From positions 1 through 64,000 of the forward strand of contig QHSX01000049.1 in the NCBI GenBank assembly GCA_003221695.1: a stretch of DNA of 64,000 bases. The letters are read 5' to 3'. The notes under the pieces are model-generated. The model worked only from the letters and a program-made list of their open reading frames with translations. It made no database searches and was not told the DNA's origin. Made by a program: the position numbers and the translations under genes. The DNA comes from Candidatus Rokuibacteriota bacterium. GTDB taxonomy: Bacteria > Methylomirabilota > Methylomirabilia > Rokubacteriales > CSP1-6. This document shows positions 1-12,404 of this stretch, one piece after another; the stretch's first letter is position 1; every line of letters begins with the position of its first letter.

Positions 1-267
1 TCGCTCCCCATCGTCGTCTGGGGGGCCGGCCTGCTCGCCCATCTCATGAACCGTTTCGTCTGGGTCGTCTGGCTCGGCGGCGGCCTGCTCGGCTACGTGG
101 CCGGCGAGATGCTCATGGAGGACCCGCTCGTGAAGCGCGGGCTCGGCGAGGCCGAGGGTGCCCTCCACTATCCGGTGCCACTCGCCATCGGCCTCGTCGT
201 CACCGCGTGCGGCTGGTGGTTCGCGCGTGAGCACCGCCACCGGGTCAAGGTGCCGGAGCACCTGTGA
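1..267 (+). CDS. TerC/YjbE-family integral membrane protein, C-terminal part (5' truncated by window edge)
   Basis: Frame open from base 1: SLPIVVWGAGLLAHLMNRFVWVVWLGGGLLGYVAGEMLMEDPLVKR, resembling the TerC C-terminal helices; stop at 265-267. Confidence 0.65.
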   Translation, partial: SLPIVVWGAGLLAHLMNRFVWVVWLGGGLLGYVAGEMLMEDPLVKRGLGEAEGALHYPVPLAIGLVVTACGWWFAREHRHRVKVPEHL

Positions 268-323
268 GGCACCCGGGACCATCGAAGCCGGCGCGGCCGG
301 ACGAGCCGTCGGGAGAGCGGGCG

Positions 324-1046
324 ATGGAGGTCGCCCCGATCAAGTCGACGCGGATCTACGAGGAGATCGTCCGCCAGGTCAAGCAGATGATCGCCGAGGG
401 CCGGCTCAAGAGCGGCGACCGGCTCCCGCCCGAGCGCGATCTTGCCGAGAAGTTCGTCGTGAGTCGCTCCTCGGTTCGTGAGGCCCTGCGGGCGCTGGAG
501 AGCCTCGGCCTGGTCGAGATCCGGCCGGGCGAGGGCACGTTCGTTCGCGAGGTCTCCGTCGAGTCGCTGATCGAGCCGCTCGCGCTCATGATGGTCTCGC
601 AGCGCGGGGCGCTCGCCGAGCTCTTCGAGGCGCGGCGCCTCCTCGAGCCCGGCATCGCGGCCCTCGCCGCGAGCCGCGCGACCCTCGAGGAGGTCTCCGA
701 GATGGAGCGGATCCTCGAAGAGCAGTCCAAAGAGATCGCCGAGGGCCGGACGGGCCTCGTCCAGGACGCCGCCTTTCACGCCGCGATCGGCGTCGCCGCC
801 CACAACGGCGCGATCACGCGGATCGCGCACGCGGTCATGGACCTCCTGACCCAGAGCCGCGAGGAGTCGCTCAACACGCCGGGCCGGCGGCAACGCTCCC
901 ACCAGGACCACCGCCGCATCCTGATAGCGATCCGCGAGCGCAACGAGCAGGGCGCGCGCGAGGCGATGCTCGATCACCTCGACGCGGTCGAGGGCCTCGT
1001 GCTGGGGCGAGAGGCCGGCCGCCGCGGGAACGCGAAGTCGTCTTGA
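324..1046 (+). CDS. GntR/FadR-family transcriptional regulator
   Basis: N-terminal wHTH 'IYEEIVRQVKQMIAEGRLKSGDRLPPERDLAEKFVVSRSSVREALRALESLGLVEIRPGEGTFV' plus FCD-type C-terminal domain. The ORF can start at 264, but ATG 324 fits the family better. Confidence 0.9.
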   Translation: MEVAPIKSTRIYEEIVRQVKQMIAEGRLKSGDRLPPERDLAEKFVVSRSSVREALRALESLGLVEIRPGEGTFVREVSVESLIEPLALMMVSQRGALAELFEARRLLEPGIAALAASRATLEEVSEMERILEEQSKEIAEGRTGLVQDAAFHAAIGVAAHNGAITRIAHAVMDLLTQSREESLNTPGRRQRSHQDHRRILIAIRERNEQGAREAMLDHLDAVEGLVLGREAGRRGNAKSS

Positions 1047-1071
1047 CCCGCGCGGGTCGGACGCCTATACT
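1043..1071 (+). promoter_or_regulatory. sigma70-type promoter TTGACC-N17-TATACT
   Basis: TTGACC at 1043-1048, 17-nt spacer, TATACT at 1066-1071; predicted start near A1078. Confidence 0.75.
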
Positions 1072-1083
1072 TGCCGCACTGTG

Positions 1084-1164
1084 ATGTCGTTCACATCGCG
1101 GGTGCTGACGCTGGAGCTTCGCCTTCTGGCGCTGCCGGGCCTGCCCGGAGCATCCGCGCAGTAG
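1084..1164 (+). CDS. Candidate Leu-rich leader peptide, 26 aa: MSFTSRVLTLELRLLALPGLPGASAQ
   Basis: ATG 1084 to TAG 1162; 7 of 26 codons are Leu; starts only about 6 nt after the predicted transcription start and is followed by alternative hairpins and a terminator. Confidence 0.6.
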   Translation: MSFTSRVLTLELRLLALPGLPGASAQ

Positions 1165-1255
1165 CTCAACGTCGGATGCCGCGGGCAGGTTGGAGCCCGT
1201 GGCGCGAGTCGACTGCGAGGGCCACGGGTTGAACGACCCGTGGCCCTCGCTTTTT
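1136..1255 (+). promoter_or_regulatory. Candidate transcription attenuator with alternative 1:2, 2:3 and 3:4 pairings
   Basis: 1:2 stem: CCTGCCCG 1140-1147 / CGGGCAGG 1182-1189, GCATCCG 1150-1156 / CGGATGC 1173-1179, CGGG 1136-1139 / CCCG 1196-1199. 2:3 antiterminator: CCCGTGGC 1196-1203 / GCCACGGG 1221-1228. 3:4 terminator: 1215-1229 / 1236-1250. Confidence 0.65.
1215..1255 (+). terminator. Rho-independent terminator
   Basis: Perfect 15-bp stem GCGAGGGCCACGGGT / ACCCGTGGCCCTCGC, loop TGAACG, followed by TTTTT. Confidence 0.92.
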
Positions 1256-1371
1256 CGGGCGAGGCGTCCTGTGGGAGGGAAGCCAGGAAGCTTGAGAAAG
1301 ATTGACACGAATGCGACGTATCTAGTAACCTTAAAAGACTTTTTCGCCGTTCAGGACGGAGACCTGAGGCC

Positions 1372-4074
1372 ATGACGAAATACGTCTACTCCTTCGGCGC
1401 GGGGAAGGCGGAAGGCTCCTCCCTGATGCGGAACCTCCTCGGCGGCAAGGGCTGCGAGCTCGCCGAGATGACCAACCTCGGGATCCCCGTGCCCCCGGGC
1501 TTCACGATCACCACGCAGGCGTGGTCTCGCTACAACAAGACCGGCCGTCAGTGGCCCGAGGGGCTCTGGGAGCAGGTGCTCGAGCACCTCGCGAAGCTCG
1601 AGGCCACGACGGGCGTGACGTTCGCCGACGCCCAGCGTCCGTTGCTCGTCTCCGTCCGCTCGGGCGCGCGGACGTCGATGCCGGGCATGATGGAAACGGT
1701 CCTCAACCTCGGCCTCAACGACACGACGGTGCTCGGGCTCGCCGCGTGGACCAAGAACGACCGCTTCGCGTGGGACTGCTACCGGCGGTTCATCGCGATG
1801 TTCGGAAGCGTCGTGCTCGGCATCAAGCGCGAGACCTTCGACGCCGAGCTCGACGCGGCGAAGCGGCGCCTCGGCGTGAAGAGCGATCCCGAGGTGTCCC
1901 CGGACGAGCTCCAGAAGCTCACCCAGACGTTCAAGGACATCGTGAGCGCGCGCACCGGCGCGCCGTTCCCGCAGGATCCGAGAGAGCAACTGCGCCTCGC
2001 GATCGACGCGGTGTTCGACTCCTGGTTCGCCAAGAAGGCCACCGAGTACCGGCGGATCCACGGGATCCCGGCCGACTGGGGCACCGCCGTGACGGTGATG
2101 GCGATGGTCTTCGGCAACCTCGGCGAGACCTCCGGGACCGGGGTCGGATTCACTCGGGACCCGCGGACCGGGGATCGCCACTTCTACGCCGAGTTTCTCG
2201 CCAACGCGCAGGGTGAGGACGTCGTGGCCGGCATCCGCACCCCCGAGCACATCGACGACCTCAAGCGCCGGATGCCCGCGATCTACGACGAGCTGCTCGG
2301 GATCGCCGACCGCCTCGAGCGTCACTACAAGGACATGCAGGACATCGAGTTCACCGTCCAGGAGGGCAAGCTCTATCTCTTGCAGACGCGCTCGGGCAAG
2401 CGCGCGGCGGCCGCCGCGGTGGGCGTCGCGGTGGACCTCGTGCGCGAGAGCGTGATCGACCAGCACACCGCGCTGCTCCGCGTGCCGCCGCGCGAGCTCA
2501 GCAAGATCTTCCTGCCCGTGCTGGACCCGAAGGACAAGGAGCAGGCGCTCGCGAAGGGACGCCTGCTCGCCCGGGGGCTGCCCGCCGCGCCCGGGGGGGC
2601 CGTCGGGCACGTGGTCTTCAACGCCGATCGGGCGGTGGAGGCGGCGCGGGACGGCCAGCACGTCATCCTGGTGCGGCCGGAGACGTCCCCCGAGGACGTG
2701 GCCGGCATGTACGCCTCCGAGGGCATCGTCACCGCCCGCGGCGGGCGCACCTCGCACGCGGCGGTCGTCGCCGTTGGGATGGGGAAGTGTTGCGTCGTGG
2801 GCGCAAGCGGCATCGCCGTGGACGAGGAGCGACGGGTCTTCGAGGCGGGCGGGCGCACGATCCGCGAGGGCGACCTGATCTCGATCGACGGCGACACCGG
2901 CGAGGTGATCGTGGACGCGGTGAAGCTGATCCCGCCGCAGCTCACCGACAAGGTCCGTGAATTCCTCGGCTGGGCGGACCGGGTCCGCACGCTGGGCGTG
3001 CGCGCGAACGCCGACACGCCCGAGGACGCCAGGAAGGCGCGCGAGTTCGGCGGTGAGGGCATCGGGCTCGTCCGCACCGAGCACATGTTCTTCGCTCCCG
3101 ACCGGATCCCGATCGTACGCGAGATGATCATGGCGGCCGACTCGGCGTCGCGCCACGCGGCTGTCAAGAAGCTGCTCCCGTTCCAGCGCGAGGATTTCAT
3201 CGGGATCTTCCGCGCGATGGACGGGCTGCCCGTCACGATCCGCCTCCTCGACCCGCCGCTCCACGAGTTCCTCACCACGCCAAAGGAATACAAGGAGATG
3301 CTCGAGGAGCGCGCCCGTCTCGACGCGCTCGGCGTGAACCCCGAACGCCAGCGCGCCCTCGACGAGAAGATCGCGAAGATCGAGGCGCTGCGCGAGGCCA
3401 ACCCGATGCTGGGGCACCGCGGCTGCCGGCTCGGGATCACCTATCCCGAGATCTACGGGATGCAGGTGCGGGCGATCATGGAGGCGGCGTGCACGGCGGC
3501 GGCCGCGGGCGTGACGGTCGAGCCCGAGATCATGATCCCGCTGACCGGCACCGTCGGCGAGATGCAGCTCACCTACGCGCAGACGAAGAAGGTCGCCGAC
3601 GGCATCATCGCGGAGATGGGGGTCCCGGTGAAGTATCTCATCGGGACCATGATCGAGGTGCCGCGGGCGGCGCTGCTCGCCGACAAGATCGCGAAGACCG
3701 CCGAGTTCTTCTCCTTCGGCACCAACGACCTCACGCAGATGACGTTCGGGTACAGCCGCGACGATGTCGCGACGTTCCTCCCGGACTATCTTCAAAAAGG
3801 GCTCCTGCCTTTCGACCCCTTCTCGGTTCTCGATCAGGAGGGCGTCGGGGAGCTCATCAAGATCGGCATCGAGCGGGGCCGCCGCACGCGGCCCGACCTC
3901 AAGATCGGCATCTGTGGCGAGCACGGCGGCGAGCCTTCGTCGGTCGAGTTCTGCCACAAGGTCGGCATGACGTACGTGTCGTGCTCTCCGTTCATGATCC
4001 CTATCGCGCGGCTCAGCGCCGCGCAGGCCCGCATCAAGGCGCGTCAGGCGTCGGAAGGGACCCCCAATGCCTAG
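1372..4074 (+). CDS. ppdK: Pyruvate, phosphate dikinase
   Basis: Full-length 900 aa; 'GGRTSHAAVVA' phosphohistidine region, 'GTNDLTQMTFGYSRDD' and 'GICGEHGGEPSSVEF' signatures. Confidence 0.97.
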   Translation: MTKYVYSFGAGKAEGSSLMRNLLGGKGCELAEMTNLGIPVPPGFTITTQAWSRYNKTGRQWPEGLWEQVLEHLAKLEATTGVTFADAQRPLLVSVRSGARTSMPGMMETVLNLGLNDTTVLGLAAWTKNDRFAWDCYRRFIAMFGSVVLGIKRETFDAELDAAKRRLGVKSDPEVSPDELQKLTQTFKDIVSARTGAPFPQDPREQLRLAIDAVFDSWFAKKATEYRRIHGIPADWGTAVTVMAMVFGNLGETSGTGVGFTRDPRTGDRHFYAEFLANAQGEDVVAGIRTPEHIDDLKRRMPAIYDELLGIADRLERHYKDMQDIEFTVQEGKLYLLQTRSGKRAAAAAVGVAVDLVRESVIDQHTALLRVPPRELSKIFLPVLDPKDKEQALAKGRLLARGLPAAPGGAVGHVVFNADRAVEAARDGQHVILVRPETSPEDVAGMYASEGIVTARGGRTSHAAVVAVGMGKCCVVGASGIAVDEERRVFEAGGRTIREGDLISIDGDTGEVIVDAVKLIPPQLTDKVREFLGWADRVRTLGVRANADTPEDARKAREFGGEGIGLVRTEHMFFAPDRIPIVREMIMAADSASRHAAVKKLLPFQREDFIGIFRAMDGLPVTIRLLDPPLHEFLTTPKEYKEMLEERARLDALGVNPERQRALDEKIAKIEALREANPMLGHRGCRLGITYPEIYGMQVRAIMEAACTAAAAGVTVEPEIMIPLTGTVGEMQLTYAQTKKVADGIIAEMGVPVKYLIGTMIEVPRAALLADKIAKTAEFFSFGTNDLTQMTFGYSRDDVATFLPDYLQKGLLPFDPFSVLDQEGVGELIKIGIERGRRTRPDLKIGICGEHGGEPSSVEFCHKVGMTYVSCSPFMIPIARLSAAQARIKARQASEGTPNA

Positions 4075-4954
4075 CTTCGACGGAGTCTTCATCCCGGTCA
4101 CGACCCCCTTCCGTGGCGACGACGTGGCGCCGGAGCGGCTCCAGGCCAACCTCCAGAAGTGGAACGCGACCGCGCTGGCGGGCTATGTCGTGCTCGGCTC
4201 GACGGGGGAGTTCCCTATGCTCAGCGAGGCCGAGCGCGACCGGATCCTCGTGGCCGCACGCGAGGCGATTCCAAAGGCGAAGGCGTTCATCGCGGGGACC
4301 GGCACGAACTCCACGCTCCACACGATCCGACAGACGAGGCGGGCCGCCGAGGTCGGCGCGGACGCGGCGATCGTGATCACACCGCACTACTTCACGAAGG
4401 GATTCTCGCAGGGCGCGGCGCAGGTCCGCCACTACCTGGCCGTGGCGGACGCGTCGCCGATCCCGATCATGATCTACAACTTTCCGCTCAACACCGGGAT
4501 CAACCTCGAGGCCGAGACCGTCGCGAAGATCGCTCAGCACCCGAACGTGTGCGGGATCAAGGACTCGTCGGGAAACATTCCGCAGGCCGCCCAGATCATC
4601 GACCAGACGCCGAAGACCTTCCACGTCCTGGTCGGCGCGGCGTCGGCGTTGCTCCCGTCGCTTGCGATCGGTTCGTCGGGCGGCATCCTGGCGCTGGGCC
4701 TCATCTGCGCGCGCGAGTTCTGCGACGTGTACGCGCTCGCGAAGGCCGGGCGGTGGGACGAGGCGCGGGAGATCGCCGCGCGCATGATGCTCGCGGACCG
4801 CGGCGTCCCGGGCCGCTACGGGATCGGCGGCCTCAAGGCGGCGCTCGAGCTCCAGGGGTTCTACGGCGGTCCGTGTCGGATGCCGCTCGGGACGCCGGAC
4901 GGCGACGCGATCGAGGACATCAAGGAAGTCCTGGCCACGGCCGGGCTCCTGTAG
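4067..4954 (+). CDS. dapA: Dihydrodipicolinate synthase (DapA) family protein
   Basis: 'GVFIPVTTPFRGDD', 'GSTGEFPMLSEAER', 'IMIYNFPLNTGINL', 'VCGIKDSSGN'. Family is clear; the exact substrate is not proven. Confidence 0.85.
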   Translation: MPSFDGVFIPVTTPFRGDDVAPERLQANLQKWNATALAGYVVLGSTGEFPMLSEAERDRILVAAREAIPKAKAFIAGTGTNSTLHTIRQTRRAAEVGADAAIVITPHYFTKGFSQGAAQVRHYLAVADASPIPIMIYNFPLNTGINLEAETVAKIAQHPNVCGIKDSSGNIPQAAQIIDQTPKTFHVLVGAASALLPSLAIGSSGGILALGLICAREFCDVYALAKAGRWDEAREIAARMMLADRGVPGRYGIGGLKAALELQGFYGGPCRMPLGTPDGDAIEDIKEVLATAGLL

Positions 4955-4960
4955 GAGGAC

Positions 4961-6721
<1,761 letters not shown>

Positions 6722-7297
6722 ATGCAGAATGGGAGCGGGCCCCGGAAGCACACGATCGCCGTCCTCGTCGAGAACAAGTTCGGCGTCCTCTCGCGCGTCG
6801 CCGGCCTCTTCTCGGCCCGCGGCTACAACATCGAGAGCCTCTCGGTCGGCGAGACACTCGATCCGTCCGTCTCCCGCATGACGCTCGTCGTGACCGGCGA
6901 CGAGTTCGTGATCGAGCAGGTGACGAAACAGCTCCACAAGCTCATCGATGTCATCAAGGTGTCGGACCTCACCGACGACGACCACGTGGAGCGCGAGCTG
7001 ATGCTGATCCGGGTCAACGCCGAGCCGCAGCACCGGGAGGAAATTCTGAGGACGGCCGACATCTTCCGCGCGAAGGTGGTCGACGTCACGCCCGTCTCGT
7101 TCACGCTCGAGGCGACCGGCGACGAGGCGAAGCTCGAGGCGCTCGTCGAGCTGCTCCGTCCGATGGGGGTCCAGGAACTGGTGCGGACCGGTAAGGTGGC
7201 GATCGCCCGCGGTCCGAAGACGCGGGTGCGAAAGGCCGAGGCGCCGAAGAAGGCTCGCGTCTCGGACGACCCGAAGGTGGTCGGGTTCGCGGACTAA
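6722..7297 (+). CDS. ilvN: Acetolactate synthase small subunit
   Basis: ACT domain '[45 protein letters not shown]'. Confidence 0.95.
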
Positions 7298-7330
7298 CGC
7301 AACGGGCGACGAGGGAAAGGAACGTCAGGG

Positions 7331-8338
7331 ATGCCGGCGAAAATCTACTACGACGCGGACGCCGACCTCGGCCTGCTCAAGGGCCGGAAGATCGCGATCA
7401 TCGGCTACGGCAGCCAGGGGCACGCCCACGCGCTGAATCTCAAGGACTCCGGTCAGGACGTCGTGGTCGGGCTCTACAAGGGCTCGAAGAGCTGGGCGAA
7501 GGCCGAGAAGGACGGGCTGCGCGTGGCGTCCGTCAACGAGGCCGCCCAGCAGGCGAGCGTGATCATGATCCTGCTGCCCGACCAGAGCCAGCGTCAGGTG
7601 TTCGAGAGCGAGATCAAGGGCGGGCTCGGCCGGGGCAAGATGCTCATGTTCGCCCATGGCTTCAACATCCACTTCAACCAGGTGGTGCCGCCGCCGGACG
7701 TGGACGTGACGATGATCGCGCCCAAGGCGCCCGGCCACGTGATGCGCGACCTCTTCACCCAGGGGCCCGGCGTCCCCGCGCTGCTCGCCGTCTTCCAGGA
7801 CGTCTCCGGCCGGGCCAGGGACACGGCGCTCGCCTACGGCAAGGGCGTGGGATGTACCCGGGCGGGAGTGATCGAAACCACGTTCAAAGAAGAGACCGAA
7901 ACAGATCTCTTCGGTGAGCAGACGACTCTCTGTGGCGGGATCTCGCACCTCATCAAGGCGGCGTTCGAAACGCTCGTGGAGGCCGGATACCAGCCGGAGG
8001 TCGCGTACTTCGAGTGCATGCACGAGATGAAGCTGATCGTCGACCTCTTCTACCAGGGCGGTCTCGCGTACATGCGCTACTCGGTCTCCGACACCGCGGA
8101 GTACGGCGACTACACCCGCGGGCCGCGTATCGTGAGCGCGGAGACCAAGGCCGAGATGAAGAAGATCCTCGCCGAGATCCAGTCCGGTCAGTTCGCCCGC
8201 GAGTGGGTGCTGGAGAATCAGGCCAACCGGGCGGGGTTCCTCGCGATGCGCCGGCGCGACGCCGAGCATCCGATCGAAGACGTCGGGAAGCGGCTGCGTG
8301 CCATGATGTCGTGGATCGCGCCGCCGCGGATGGGCTGA
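7331..8338 (+). CDS. ilvC: Ketol-acid reductoisomerase
   Basis: '[21 protein letters not shown]', '[38 protein letters not shown]'. Confidence 0.97.
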
Positions 8339-8341
8339 CGC

Positions 8342-8968
8342 GTGAAGGTCTCCGTTGCGCGCGAGGGCTGGCCGTTCATCACGGTCCCCGCGTTCCTCGC
8401 CGTGGGGCTCCTGCTCGGTGGTCGCCGCGCCCTCGCGCTCCCGTTTGCCGCGGCGGCGCTCGCGTCCCTCGGCTTCTTTCGGGATCCCGACCGGGACGTG
8501 CCGTCGGTGCCGGGCGGCGTGCTGTCGCCGGCGGACGGACGCGTCCTCTCGGTGGAGACGATCGAGGACCGGTTCGTGGGCCCGGCCCTCCGGGTCGGGA
8601 TCTTCCTCTCCCCGCTCGACGTCCACGTCAATCGCTCGCCCATTGCGGGGCTCGTGGTCGGGACCGTGTACTCGCGGGGCCGCTTTCTCGCGGCCTACCG
8701 CTCCGAGGCCGAGGGCGCGAACGAGCGTTGTGCCCTCCACCTGCAGGGTGAGACGGCGCGCGTCACGGTCGTCCAGATCGCGGGCGTGCTCGCCCGGCGG
8801 ATCGTCTGCCGAGTCGGCCCGGGCGACAAGCTCGCGGCGGGCGAGCGGTTCGGCATGATCCGCTTCGGCTCCCGCACCGACTGCGTGATGCCGCGGGGGA
8901 CCGACGTACGCGTGCGCGTCGGCGACCGTGTGACGGGCGGCGTCACCGTCCTCGGGCTCCTGACATGA
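8342..8968 (+). CDS. psd: Phosphatidylserine decarboxylase (short type)
   Basis: 'FFRDPDRDVPS', 'SPADGRVLSVE', 'LSPLDVHVNRSP', autoprocessing-type 'IRFGSRTD'. Confidence 0.93.
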   Translation: MKVSVAREGWPFITVPAFLAVGLLLGGRRALALPFAAAALASLGFFRDPDRDVPSVPGGVLSPADGRVLSVETIEDRFVGPALRVGIFLSPLDVHVNRSPIAGLVVGTVYSRGRFLAAYRSEAEGANERCALHLQGETARVTVVQIAGVLARRIVCRVGPGDKLAAGERFGMIRFGSRTDCVMPRGTDVRVRVGDRVTGGVTVLGLLT

Positions 8969-9759
8969 TCCGACGGCACGGCAAGGGCCTGAGGCGGCGC
9001 CGCTGGCACGAGCTGCGGGAGCGGCGGCGGAGAGGGATCTTCCTGCTCCCGAGTCTCCTCACGACCGGGAACCTCTTCTGTGGATTTTTCGCGCTCATCC
9101 TCACGGTCGAGAACCGGTACACCGAGGCCGCGCTCGCGATCTTCGTCGCGATGATCATGGACATCCTGGACGGGCGCGTTGCCCGTCTGATGAAGGCGAC
9201 CAGCCAGTTCGGCCTCGAGTTCGACTCCCTCGCCGACGTCGTGTCGTTCTGCGTGGCGCCGGCCTTTCTCGTCTACTCGTTCGCGCTCTCCGTCCTCGGG
9301 CGCCCGGCGTGGTTCGGTGCGTTCCTGTTCGTGATCTGCGGGGCCCTCCGGCTCGCCCGCTTCAACGTCCACACGGGGACGGGGGACCGTCGATTCTTCG
9401 TCGGGCTTCCGACGCCCGCCGCGGCGGGGCTCGTGGTATCCGCGGTGATCCTGCTCAAGGGGGTCGAGCTCGTCCCCTGGCTTCTCTTGACGATCGCGGT
9501 CGGAACGTACGTGGCGGCGCTCTTGATGGTCTCGACGTTCCGCTACTGGAGCTTCAAGGAGTTCGACTTCGCCCGGCGGCGTCCGCTCTGGACGCTGCTC
9601 GTCATGGTGCTGAGCGTGATGATCGTGGCCACGCGCCACGAGGTCTTCCTCTTCCTCATCTTCGCGGGGTACGCGGCGTCGGGCCCGATCAGGCGGTTCA
9701 TCGTCGGGCGGACGCCTGCGGTGCTCCCCGCGGACCAAGCCGTCAGGGACCATCCGTGA
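8965..9759 (+). CDS. pssA: CDP-diacylglycerol--serine O-phosphatidyltransferase
   Basis: 'LPSLLTTGNLFCGFFALI' and CDP-alcohol phosphotransferase motif 'DILDGRVARLMKATSQFGLEFDSLADVVSF'. Confidence 0.93.
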   Translation: MIRRHGKGLRRRRWHELRERRRRGIFLLPSLLTTGNLFCGFFALILTVENRYTEAALAIFVAMIMDILDGRVARLMKATSQFGLEFDSLADVVSFCVAPAFLVYSFALSVLGRPAWFGAFLFVICGALRLARFNVHTGTGDRRFFVGLPTPAAAGLVVSAVILLKGVELVPWLLLTIAVGTYVAALLMVSTFRYWSFKEFDFARRRPLWTLLVMVLSVMIVATRHEVFLFLIFAGYAASGPIRRFIVGRTPAVLPADQAVRDHP

Positions 9760-9773
9760 GTCAGGGGGGTCAC

Positions 9774-11318
9774 ATGGATCGCGTCATCATCTTCGACACG
9801 ACGCTGCGGGACGGCGAGCAGTCGCCGGGGTTCTCGATGAACACGGTGGAGAAGCTCGAGATGGCGCGGCAGCTCGCCCGGCTTCAGGTCGATGTCATCG
9901 AGGCGGGCTTCCCGATCTCGTCGGACGAGGACTTCGAGGCGACGCGCGAGGTCGCCAAGCAGGTCGGCACGCTCGAGAACGCGCCGACGGTCTGCGGCCT
10001 CTCGCGCGTGGGGCTGGCGGACATCGACCGCTGTTGGGAGGCGGTGAAGTATGCGCGGAAGCCCCGGATCCACACCTTCGTCGCGACCTCCGACATCCAC
10101 CTGAAGTACAAGCTGCGGAAGTCCCGGGCCGAAGTGCTGAAGGCGGCGGTCGACGCCGTGCGGCACGCGAAGGGCTACTGCGAGGACGTCGAGTTCTCGC
10201 CCGAGGACGCCTCGCGCTCGGACTTCGACTACATGTGCGACGTGCTGTCGGCGGTGATCGAGGCGGGGGCAAAGACGATCAACATTCCCGACACCGTCGG
10301 CTACGCGATCCCGCGCGAGTGGGGCGAGCGCATCGCCCGGATCCGCGAGAAGGTCCGCGGAATGGAGAAGGTGATCCTCTCGGTCCACTGCCACAACGAC
10401 CTCGGCCAGGCGGTCGCCAACTCGCTGACGGCCATCATGAACGGGGCGCGGCAGGTCGAGTGCACCATCAACGGGATCGGCGAGCGGGCGGGGAACGCGT
10501 CGCTCGAGGAGATCGTGATGGCGCTTCGCACCCGCAAGGACTTCTTCGGCGTCGACACGGGCGTGAAGACCGAGGAGATCTTCAAGACCTCGCGGCTCCT
10601 CTCGCACATCACGGGCATCCACGTCCAGCCGAACAAGGCAATCGTGGGCGAGAACGCGTTCGCCCACGAGGCGGGGATCCACCAGGACGGTGTGCTGAAG
10701 GAGAAGCTCACGTACGAGATCATGCGGCCGGAGGACATCGGACGGCCGTCCAACAAGCTCGTCCTGGGCAAGCACTCTGGGCGGCACGCCCTGGCGGCGC
10801 GGCTCAAAGATCTGGGCTTCGACCTCTCCGGGCCCGACCTCGACCGGGCATTCAAGGCCTTCAAGGACCTCGCCGACCGGAAGAAGGAGGTCTTCGACGA
10901 AGACTTGATGGCGATCGTCACCGACGAGGCGGCGCAGGGCGCGATCGGGTACGAGCTCGAGTACCTGCACGTGATCAGCGGGACGGGCGTGGTGCCGTCG
11001 GCGACCGTGAAGCTCAAGAAGGAGGGGCAGGTGTTCCAGGACTCGGGCGTGGGCGACGGGCCCGTCGACGCGGTGCTGAACGCGATCGACGCGGTCACGG
11101 GGATGAAGGGTCGGCTCCAGGACTACTCGCTCCGTGCCGCGACGTCGGGCAAGGACGCGATCGGTGAGGTGTCGATGAAGGTCGACTTCGACGGGACGGT
11201 CGTCTGGGGCAAGGGCGCGTCGACGGACGTGATCGAGGCGAGCGCGCGGGCGTATCTCTCGGCGCTCAACCGGGTGACCCACCCCGCCGCCCAGCACGTC
11301 AAGGAAATCGGACCATAG
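9774..11318 (+). CDS. leuA: 2-isopropylmalate synthase
   Basis: 'IIFDTTLRDGEQSPGFSM', 'VHCHNDLGQAVANSL', C-terminal LeuA allosteric domain. Start taken as ATG 9774. Confidence 0.97.
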   Translation: MDRVIIFDTTLRDGEQSPGFSMNTVEKLEMARQLARLQVDVIEAGFPISSDEDFEATREVAKQVGTLENAPTVCGLSRVGLADIDRCWEAVKYARKPRIHTFVATSDIHLKYKLRKSRAEVLKAAVDAVRHAKGYCEDVEFSPEDASRSDFDYMCDVLSAVIEAGAKTINIPDTVGYAIPREWGERIARIREKVRGMEKVILSVHCHNDLGQAVANSLTAIMNGARQVECTINGIGERAGNASLEEIVMALRTRKDFFGVDTGVKTEEIFKTSRLLSHITGIHVQPNKAIVGENAFAHEAGIHQDGVLKEKLTYEIMRPEDIGRPSNKLVLGKHSGRHALAARLKDLGFDLSGPDLDRAFKAFKDLADRKKEVFDEDLMAIVTDEAAQGAIGYELEYLHVISGTGVVPSATVKLKKEGQVFQDSGVGDGPVDAVLNAIDAVTGMKGRLQDYSLRAATSGKDAIGEVSMKVDFDGTVVWGKGASTDVIEASARAYLSALNRVTHPAAQHVKEIGP

Positions 11319-12404
11319 ATGGCCACGTACCGGATCGCGGTCCTCCCCGGCGACGGCATCGGGCAGGAGGTCACTCCCGAGGCCGTGCGGGTTCTCAAGG
11401 CGGTCGGCAAGGGGGCCGGCGTCGGCTTCGAGTTCGAGCAGGCGCTCGTCGGGGGCGCCGCGATCGACGCGACCGGGAGCCCGCTGGCGCCCGGCACGCT
11501 TGAGCTGTGCCGACGGTCCCACGCGATCCTCTTTGGCGCCGTCGGTGGCCCCAAGTGGGACGGCGTCGCGCACGAGCGACGGCCGGAGCGCGGGCTCCTC
11601 GCCCTGCGCAAGGAGCTGGACCTCTACGCGAACCTGCGGCCGGCGAAGTGCTTCCCGATGCTCGTGGACGCCTCTCCCCTGAAGCGATCGGTCGTCGAGG
11701 GCACGGACCTCATGATGATCCGCGAGCTCACGGGGGGCCTGTATTTCGGGGAGCCCCGCGGGATAGAGCGTGTCGCCGACGGTGGGGCGCGCGCGGTCAA
11801 CACCATGGTCTACACCTCGCGCGAGATCGACCGGATCGCCCGGACCGCCTTCGAGGTGGCCCGGGGGCGCCGGAAGCGCCTCGCCTCGGTGGACAAGGCC
11901 AACGTTCTGGTCGTCTCCCAGCTCTGGCGCGAGGTCGTGACGCGCGTCGGCCAGAACTACCCCGACGTCGTACTCGAGCACGTGCTCGTCGACAACTGCG
12001 CGATGGCACTCGTCCACCGGCCGACGCAGTTCGATACGATTGTGACCGAGAACACCTTCGGTGATATTTTGTCGGATGAGGCCGCGATCCTCGCGGGCTC
12101 GATGGGGATGCTGCCCTCCGCGTCCCTCGGCGCGTCGGCGGCGCTCTACGAGCCGGTGCACGGCACGGCGCCGGACATCGCCGGTAAGGGGATCGCGAAC
12201 CCGATCGCCGCGATCCTCTCGGTCGCGATGCTGCTCCGCCACACGCTGAGTCTGGAGAAGGACGCGGACCGGGTCGAGCGCGCCGTGCTGCGCGTCCTCG
12301 AGCAGGGCCACCGCACGGCGGACATCGCGGCCCCGGGCGCGCGGAGGGTCGGCACGAAGGAGATGACGGACCTGATCGTGCGGGAAGTGGAGGCCCAGTA
12401 CTGA
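11319..12404 (+). CDS. leuB: 3-isopropylmalate dehydrogenase
   Basis: '[23 protein letters not shown]', '[29 protein letters not shown]'. Confidence 0.97.

Follow-up and report, generated by a model that had tools for sequence, protein, structure and literature searches.

Genomic context of the leader region

Close to the start of the window, the 64,000-nucleotide stretch of DNA analyzed here, a gntR-type regulator gene is followed by an operon with ppdK as its first structural gene, and two predicted promoters and a putative attenuator lie at their junction. The genes and promoters are as follows.

264 to 1046, forward strand: GntR regulator of the FadR/PdhR type, the upstream gene, whose stop codon overlaps the -35 element of P1
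1043 to 1071, forward strand: predicted promoter P1, with -35 TTGACC at 1043 to 1048, a spacer of 17 nt, and -10 TATACT at 1066 to 1071
1302 to 1346, forward strand: predicted promoter P2, with TTGACA at 1302 to 1307, a spacer of 18 nt, TAACCT at 1326 to 1331, and then the conserved AAAGACTTTTTCG
1372 to 4074, forward strand: ppdK, pyruvate phosphate dikinase, first structural gene
4067 to 12404, forward strand: dapA-like gene, ilvB, ilvN, ilvC, psd, pssA, leuA (from 9774), and leuB

NCBIfam assignments gave the order ppdK-dapA-like-ilvB-ilvN-ilvC-psd-pssA-leuA-leuB with a largest gap of 33 nt, which agrees with the order and gaps listed in an earlier note on this DNA; the gene named dapA there encodes a dapA-family protein that scores below the dapA equivalog cutoff. 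The proposed link of the leader region to branched-chain amino acid synthesis is supported by relatives carrying the same element, in which ilvB is located about 2.8 to 3.9 kb downstream on the same strand wherever the contig is long enough. The near-consensus promoter TTGACC-N17-TATACT is present as described before and is the sole promoter-like match between positions 900 and 1400 (10/12; shuffles, 0.0). Transcription from P1 is expected to start at about 1077 to 1079.

A conserved leader ORF

Downstream of P1 lies a short ORF containing a cluster of putative control codons.

1081 to 1164, forward strand: leader peptide ORF, start GTG 1081 or ATG 1084, stop TAG 1162 to 1164
1117 to 1128, forward strand: putative control codons CTT CGC CTT CTG, encoding L R L L (L I L L in the family consensus)

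The encoded peptide is (V)MSFTSRVLTLELRLLALPGLPGASAQ. Counted from ATG 1084 to TAG 1164, 7 of the 26 codons specify Leu, a richness matched by none of the 318 short ORFs of the window. The Leu-rich ORF itself had been recognized earlier, but with ATG 1084 as its start and a length of 26 codons. GTG 1081 is probably the start, because it lies 9 nt past the -10 element, aligns with the ATG of the nearest relative, and fits the spacing of 7 to 10 nt between the -10 element and the leader start codon in those ilv relatives in which a -10 element was found. With this start, the leader has 27 codons, the usual length. The ORF lacks a Shine-Dalgarno sequence, and its translation would therefore have to be near-leaderless, a suggestion of the earlier note with which the spacing in the relatives is compatible.

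The leader frame is open in every aligned copy, insertions and deletions comprise whole codons, and the stop codon is located just past RNA segment 1 (see below). For the 11 codons that precede the stems, pN/pS was 0.67 in the leader frame, compared with 1.34 and 1.37 in the other two frames. The positions on either side of the Ala or Val that precedes LPG are Leu in all 25 sequences. These patterns of substitution indicate that the leader ORF is translated, and since aligned relatives retain the leader in frame, the element is not a product of chance. The leader RNA also has a fold far more stable than those of shuffled sequences (z, -5.5; 0 of 200).

A chain of five RNA segments

The end of the ORF and the downstream RNA were resolved into five segments.

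1140 to 1155, forward strand: segment 1, within the last codons of the ORF; partner, segment 2
1174 to 1189, forward strand: segment 2; partner, segment 1 and, via 1178 to 1186, also segment 3
1195 to 1203, forward strand: segment 3, GCCCGTGGC; partner, segment 2 or, in the putative antiterminator, segment 4
1215 to 1229, forward strand: segment 4, 5' arm of the predicted terminator; 1221 to 1229 pairs with segment 3 in the putative antiterminator
1236 to 1255, forward strand: segment 5 (3' arm of the predicted terminator, 1236 to 1250) and U tract (1251 to 1255)

The segments are chained through helices 1:2, 2:3, 3:4, and 4:5, which have 13, 9, 9, and 15 pairs and energies of -22.2, -19.0, -17.3, and -33.9 kcal/mol, respectively. 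The hairpin previously described as perfect is so, its arms (1215 to 1229 and 1236 to 1250) being complementary at 15 of 15 positions and followed by TTTTT, and it constitutes an intrinsic terminator before the first structural gene. The repeat of CCCGTGGC at 1196 to 1203 and again at 1237 to 1244, in the 3' arm of the terminator, was likewise confirmed. The 3' half of the leader does pair with downstream RNA, but the helix extends over 1140 to 1155 with 1174 to 1189, not over 1136 to 1156 with 1173 to 1199 as first given, and consists of 7 plus 6 bp around a 3-by-3 internal loop. The 9-bp pairing of 1178 to 1186 with 1195 to 1203 (helix 2:3) was absent from the earlier model, and it is this helix that links the leader ORF to the terminator. 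The internal-loop bases of helix 1:2 (CAC/CGC) are conserved because the 2:3 pairing uses them. Helix 1:2 sits at the end of the ORF, and helix 3:4 shares arm 4 with the terminator, the two being mutually exclusive.

The pairings are conserved both in the ilv element and in a homologous element upstream of DAHP synthase genes (the aro element, described below). Across 25 ilv sequences, the 13 pairs of helix 1:2 are 98.7 to 100% paired, helix 2:3 is 100% paired, and 99.5% of the cells of helix 3:4 are paired; the aro values are 99.3% for the lower 1:2 helix and 99.7% for helix 3:4. Paired cells drop to 29 to 49% in slid controls of the two alignments, which matter because related sequences can beat every shuffle without any structure. 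Covariation, which had been named as a check on the stems, was found: 7 pairs changed on both sides in the ilv OFF state and 6 in the aro ON state (0 of 500 shuffles in each case). Compensatory changes are more numerous in aro than in ilv, and helix 1:2 is homologous in aro, where it shows such changes. The ilv segments vary little, and covariation within the ilv switch helices is therefore modest, with two two-sided pairs in helix 1:2 and none in helices 2:3 and 3:4; the outer pairs of the ilv terminator show compensatory changes. At the one commonly variable core position, C in segment 3 never occurs with A in segment 4. The absence of this combination, which would break helix 3:4, favors that helix, but as a supportive observation that is confounded with family membership. 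A candidate sixth segment, forming helix 0:1 (1131 to 1139 with 1144 to 1151; 93.5% of cells paired, two compensated pairs), was rejected because it folds only transiently before segment 2 and is not clearly present in aro.

A homologous element upstream of DAHP synthase

The ilv covariance model matched a second site in nearly every genome of the family, upstream of DAHP synthase, whose gene is the first in aromatic amino acid synthesis. In the genome of the window, the copy is as follows.

L080:1642-1771, contig C3: aro element, putative Phe/Tyr attenuator before DAHP synthase, with thrS a short distance downstream

The DAHP synthase of this copy was assigned by NCBIfam (TIGR01361/NF006421). 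A covariance model of the aro element found it in 54 of 57 family genomes and recovered the ilv elements as second-best matches, so that each model detects the other element. The aro leader peptides, for example MGSHPTWFSFFYFGGVCPGALS, MATWWRRVGFFFYYFAGVCPGALT, and MSPWAGSGFFYFYYFTGVCPRALT, are set in the same RNA frame as the ilv leader. The terminator core occurs at only two places in the 4.6-Mb genome, the ilv and aro attenuators. A scan for the three-segment pattern returned only these two elements in nearly all genomes, with one unrelated match in genome G009 and one match in 60 genomes for the reversed-pattern control. Judged from these sequence comparisons, the ilv and aro attenuators are homologous.

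The edge of a ribosome is taken as 12 to 13 nt beyond the first base of its A-site codon. On this basis, the codons at 1117 to 1128 are modeled as the control codons, the last four on which a ribosome can stall without covering segment 1; a ribosome stalled there would uncover the switching segment, and one at the stop codon would cover it. Codons for Leu, Ile, and Val make up 89% of this control window in the 25 ilv sequences, and those for Phe, Tyr, and Trp make up 0%. The corresponding aro values are 7% and 74%, the latter being lowered by a few windows misanchored in codon count. The codon cluster of the short ORF therefore matches the amino acids made downstream, and the Leu codons to which a controlling role had been assigned are replaced in the aro homologue by Phe/Tyr codons. 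The main confidence in attenuation comes from this comparison, because two pathways share one RNA frame, at equivalent positions of which the codons suit the pathway concerned. Such a homologous pair, in which the control codons differ but their position in the structure does not, represents a natural swap experiment: the switch is separated from the amino acid that it senses.

Proposed mechanism and alternative explanations

Positions 1043 to 1255 very likely constitute a ribosome-mediated attenuator that senses charged leucyl-tRNA and confers leucine-responsive control on ppdK-ilv-leu. Isoleucyl- and valyl-tRNA are probably sensed as well, to a lesser degree. The class of mechanism put forward in the earlier note is thus supported by the conserved ORF and codons, the covariation, and the codon swap in aro. 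Its trp-like 1:2/2:3/3:4 logic is replaced by the five-segment chain, and stalling, which had been thought to free segment 2, would instead let segment 1 capture segment 2 and thereby free segment 3.

Transcription from P1 would yield a near-leaderless mRNA on which a ribosome initiates at the leader ORF at once. When leucine is plentiful, the ribosome would reach the stop codon and cover segment 1, leaving 2:3 to pair and 4:5 to terminate transcription, with a terminated P1 RNA of about 175 nt. Under a shortage of Leu-tRNA, the ribosome would stall at L-x-L-L, the codons shortly ahead of segment 1, segment 1 would capture segment 2, and the freed segment 3 would capture segment 4 to form the antiterminator, with RNA polymerase continuing through P2 into ppdK.

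The ribosome states were modeled by folding growing transcripts minus the part covered by the ribosome. With the ribosome before segment 1, the 1:2 and 3:4 helices were highly probable until the RNA end reached 1242. With the ribosome at the stop codon, folding gave a complete helix 2:3 before segment 4 emerged and an end state of 2:3 plus 4:5, 2:3 and 3:4 being almost equal in energy at intermediate lengths. Once segment 5 had emerged, terminator 4:5 won at equilibrium in every ribosome state; given the energies of terminator and antiterminator (-33.9 versus -17.3 kcal/mol), antitermination would have to be kinetic. Folding in the absence of a ribosome gave 1:2 plus 3:4, and an untranslated leader should therefore read through. 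This state, the reverse of that in trpL, is predicted from the odd number of segments and provides the five-segment model with a sharp and unusual prediction, namely, that a start-codon mutant shows readthrough.

Other functions of the P1 unit were considered. The peptide peTrpL of Sinorhizobium has been reported to act in trans (PMC7298713), and the P1 unit might similarly be an independent small RNA or peptide gene, with P2 alone driving the ilv operon. The terminated RNA would be a discrete species of about 175 nt, and P2 is conserved whether or not the element is present, as such a gene would allow. However, the alternative pairing 3:4 and the match between codons and pathway in both elements would be left unexplained, and in a genome lacking P2 (G014) ppdK needs readthrough from P1; this explanation is considered unlikely, although a trans role could exist beside attenuation. 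It is still harder to view the ORF as a functional hydrophobic micropeptide (signal-peptide-like MxxRVLSLGLILLALPGLPGASA) encoded over an ordinary terminator, an explanation held to be extremely improbable despite the hydrophobic core, the in-frame constraint, and the conserved C-terminal PGLPGASA. The conserved C terminus coincides with RNA segment 1, a Pro-to-Ser substitution at locus L014 and a Ser-to-Pro substitution at L021 alter the residue and keep the base pairing, and in the aro copies the RNA frame is retained with peptides that are unrelated.

Arrest by the nascent peptide, as in TnaC or ErmC, could stall the ribosome in place of tRNA scarcity, and the Pro-Gly-rich C terminus near the stop codon would suit it. 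However, residues close to the stop codon are free to vary as long as the RNA can still pair, and the positions under constraint farther upstream hold Leu/Ile/Val or Phe/Tyr codons according to pathway, so that such arrest is regarded as very improbable. A 6S-like or other stand-alone RNA, suggested by the fold, was dropped given the ORF frame, the codon pattern, and the aro copy.

A second promoter past the terminator

Attenuation of transcription from P1 would operate together with P2, which lies between the attenuator terminator and ppdK and was absent from the earlier note. The sequence TTGAC[ATG]-18-TAnnnT is found in 24 of the 26 element-bearing loci, usually about 40 nt before ppdK, and is followed in most of them by the consensus AAAGACTTTTTC; P2 with a 17- to 18-nt spacer is also present in seven of eight relatives without the attenuator. 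Because P2 is downstream of the terminator, P1 would contribute a further, leucine-responsive share of transcription, and because P2 can transcribe ppdK while bypassing the attenuator, the quantitative effect of the attenuator may be small. Locus L010 (G014) has no P2, and about 27 nt separate the end of its terminator from ppdK. Since P2 is missing there, ppdK and the operon should depend on readthrough from P1. At L007, upstream of ppdK in G034, the -35 element of P2 is degraded and a -10-like TAATAT and the GACTTTTTC start remain; here, as in G014, the attenuated P1 may matter more.

The presumed first bases transcribed from P2 (1332 to 1346 and the same place in relatives) read AAAGACTTTTTCG almost invariantly, and a similar GGACTTT occurs in some relatives without the attenuator. 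Initial sequences like GACUUUUU are known for UTP-sensitive slippage, and by analogy the GACUUUUU start of P2 might be another control. In addition, loci L152, L154, and L155 (G031, G005, and G011), which lack the ilv attenuator, have a small hairpin with a U tract (AGGCC..GGCCTGT..TTTTTC) before ppdK, 30 to 60 nt past P2, possibly a different attenuator; L153 is similar.

Comparison with known attenuators

Searches of Rfam at the gathering score and at E values of up to 10, in which the Leu, Trp, Thr, His, and Phe leaders and the T-box were considered, gave no leader, T-box, or riboswitch match, the weak hits being unrelated. In trpL, leuL, ilvL, and hisL of E. coli and Salmonella, control codons are combined with a coupling of ribosome position to the terminator, and in hisL the signal also runs through at least two pairs of hairpins. 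The Rokubacteria element resembles these leaders in its control codons and in the proposed coupling, but it has no recognizable relationship to them (no Rfam leader match at an E value of 10); it differs from trpL in segment number and in the predicted untranslated state, and its leader has no Shine-Dalgarno sequence.

Among Actinobacteria, both attenuators of ilv genes and leaderless leader peptides have been described (PMC8079986, PMC11857589, PMC13236596, and PMC1262725). The ilvBNC leader-peptide attenuators of Corynebacterium and Mycobacterium (PMC11857589 and PMC13236596) are similar in that the leader, leaderless in Corynebacterium or a short ORF, abounds in Leu/Val/Ile codons, that stalling favors an antiterminator over an intrinsic terminator, and that a branched-chain operon lies downstream. 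However, C. glutamicum has three hairpins and M. tuberculosis has two mutually exclusive structures that overlap directly, whereas the Rokubacteria element has a five-segment chain. Removal of the start codon lowers expression in C. glutamicum, whereas folding predicts the opposite for the Rokubacteria element, which is also distinguished by ppdK as the first gene and a second promoter past the terminator. The LEU element and ilvB leaders of Actinobacteria have Leu-rich ORFs upstream of leuA or ilvB, the LEU element being a pseudoknot without the usual attenuator parts in which Leu-codon mutations had no effect (PMC1262725); the Rokubacteria element, in contrast, has a strong terminator and explicit alternative pairings. 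Leader-peptide attenuation in aromatic synthesis, the role proposed for the DAHP-synthase element, has an example in Corynebacterium glutamicum, in which a gene for aromatic amino acids carries an attenuator (Neshat et al. 2014, known here through its citation in PMC8079986); the likeness to it is drawn from this cited description. The aromatic and branched-chain attenuators of Rokubacteria are homologous to each other. In the open-access literature searched, no report was found that connects leader-peptide attenuation with Rokubacteria or describes attenuator duplication accompanied by recoding of the control codons.

Distribution and probable origin of the putative attenuators

DNA searches and alignment identified 26 loci, that of the window included, that carry the element between a gntR-type gene and ppdK; these preserve the ORF frame, the stop position, and the segments, and their flanks diverge. 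The ORF with its Leu codons and the terminator are conserved together, the outcome on which the earlier note had made its proposal depend. The covariance model gave strong ilv matches in 36 of 95 phylum genomes, all within one Rokubacteria family (Methylomirabilota; 36 of 57 genomes); these are bacteria of soil and groundwater. A pattern scan of named genomes matched only Candidatus Rokubacteria, Rokuibacteriota, or Methylomirabilota records. Where the ilv element is missing, relatives retain P2 together with gntR and/or ppdK-ilvB but lack P1, the ORF, and the terminator. The ilv element is absent from basal family members and from families f2 and f4. With changes placed on a ppdK tree, this distribution is consistent with a single gain within the family and losses in G017 and G023, with more gains being possible. 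Since these two relatives apparently lost the element yet retain the operon, it is not essential.

The aro element is present in basal family members and in families f3, f4, and f6, and because of this wider distribution it is probably older than the ilv element. We infer from these sequences that the ilv element originated within the family, when the attenuator of DAHP synthase was copied and its control codons were changed. In f3 and f4, a single terminator has a 5' arm that pairs directly with the end of the ORF; f2 and f6 have two homologous terminators in tandem, both with U tracts; and in f1 the first has no U tract. This series, in which each outside family is represented by one genome, suggests that the terminator was duplicated and that the first copy was then turned into a relay. 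The chances are about even that the attenuator is a portable duplicated module, which passed from a simple aro form through tandem terminators to a strand-exchange relay and then to an ilv copy recoded from Phe/Tyr to Leu. The ilv/aro pair suggests that switches of this kind can be assembled in steps, multiplied, and redirected to other amino acids.

Among the aro copies L083 to L087, L096, L116, and L118, some have a Shine-Dalgarno sequence and a longer 5' untranslated region, and others are near-leaderless. Two aro-type attenuators occur in one assembly in G033 (L100 and L081) and in G088 (L092 and L097), the G088 pair being near identical, perhaps through strain mixing. A Val-rich leader in L103 and L104 (G053 and G054) was rejected as a further attenuator, having a marginal score and, downstream, a sigma-54-type regulator and no synthesis operon; its ORF (..KRSVVVAVVR.CPRAGGV) is accompanied by two tandem homologous terminators upstream of the regulator gene, which is truncated. 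At a contig end in G047 (L105, about 1762 to 1991), a leader ORF resembling those of branched-chain amino acid operons, MQRPLATLLILVGVAGVCPRADSVGA, is likewise found with two tandem terminators.
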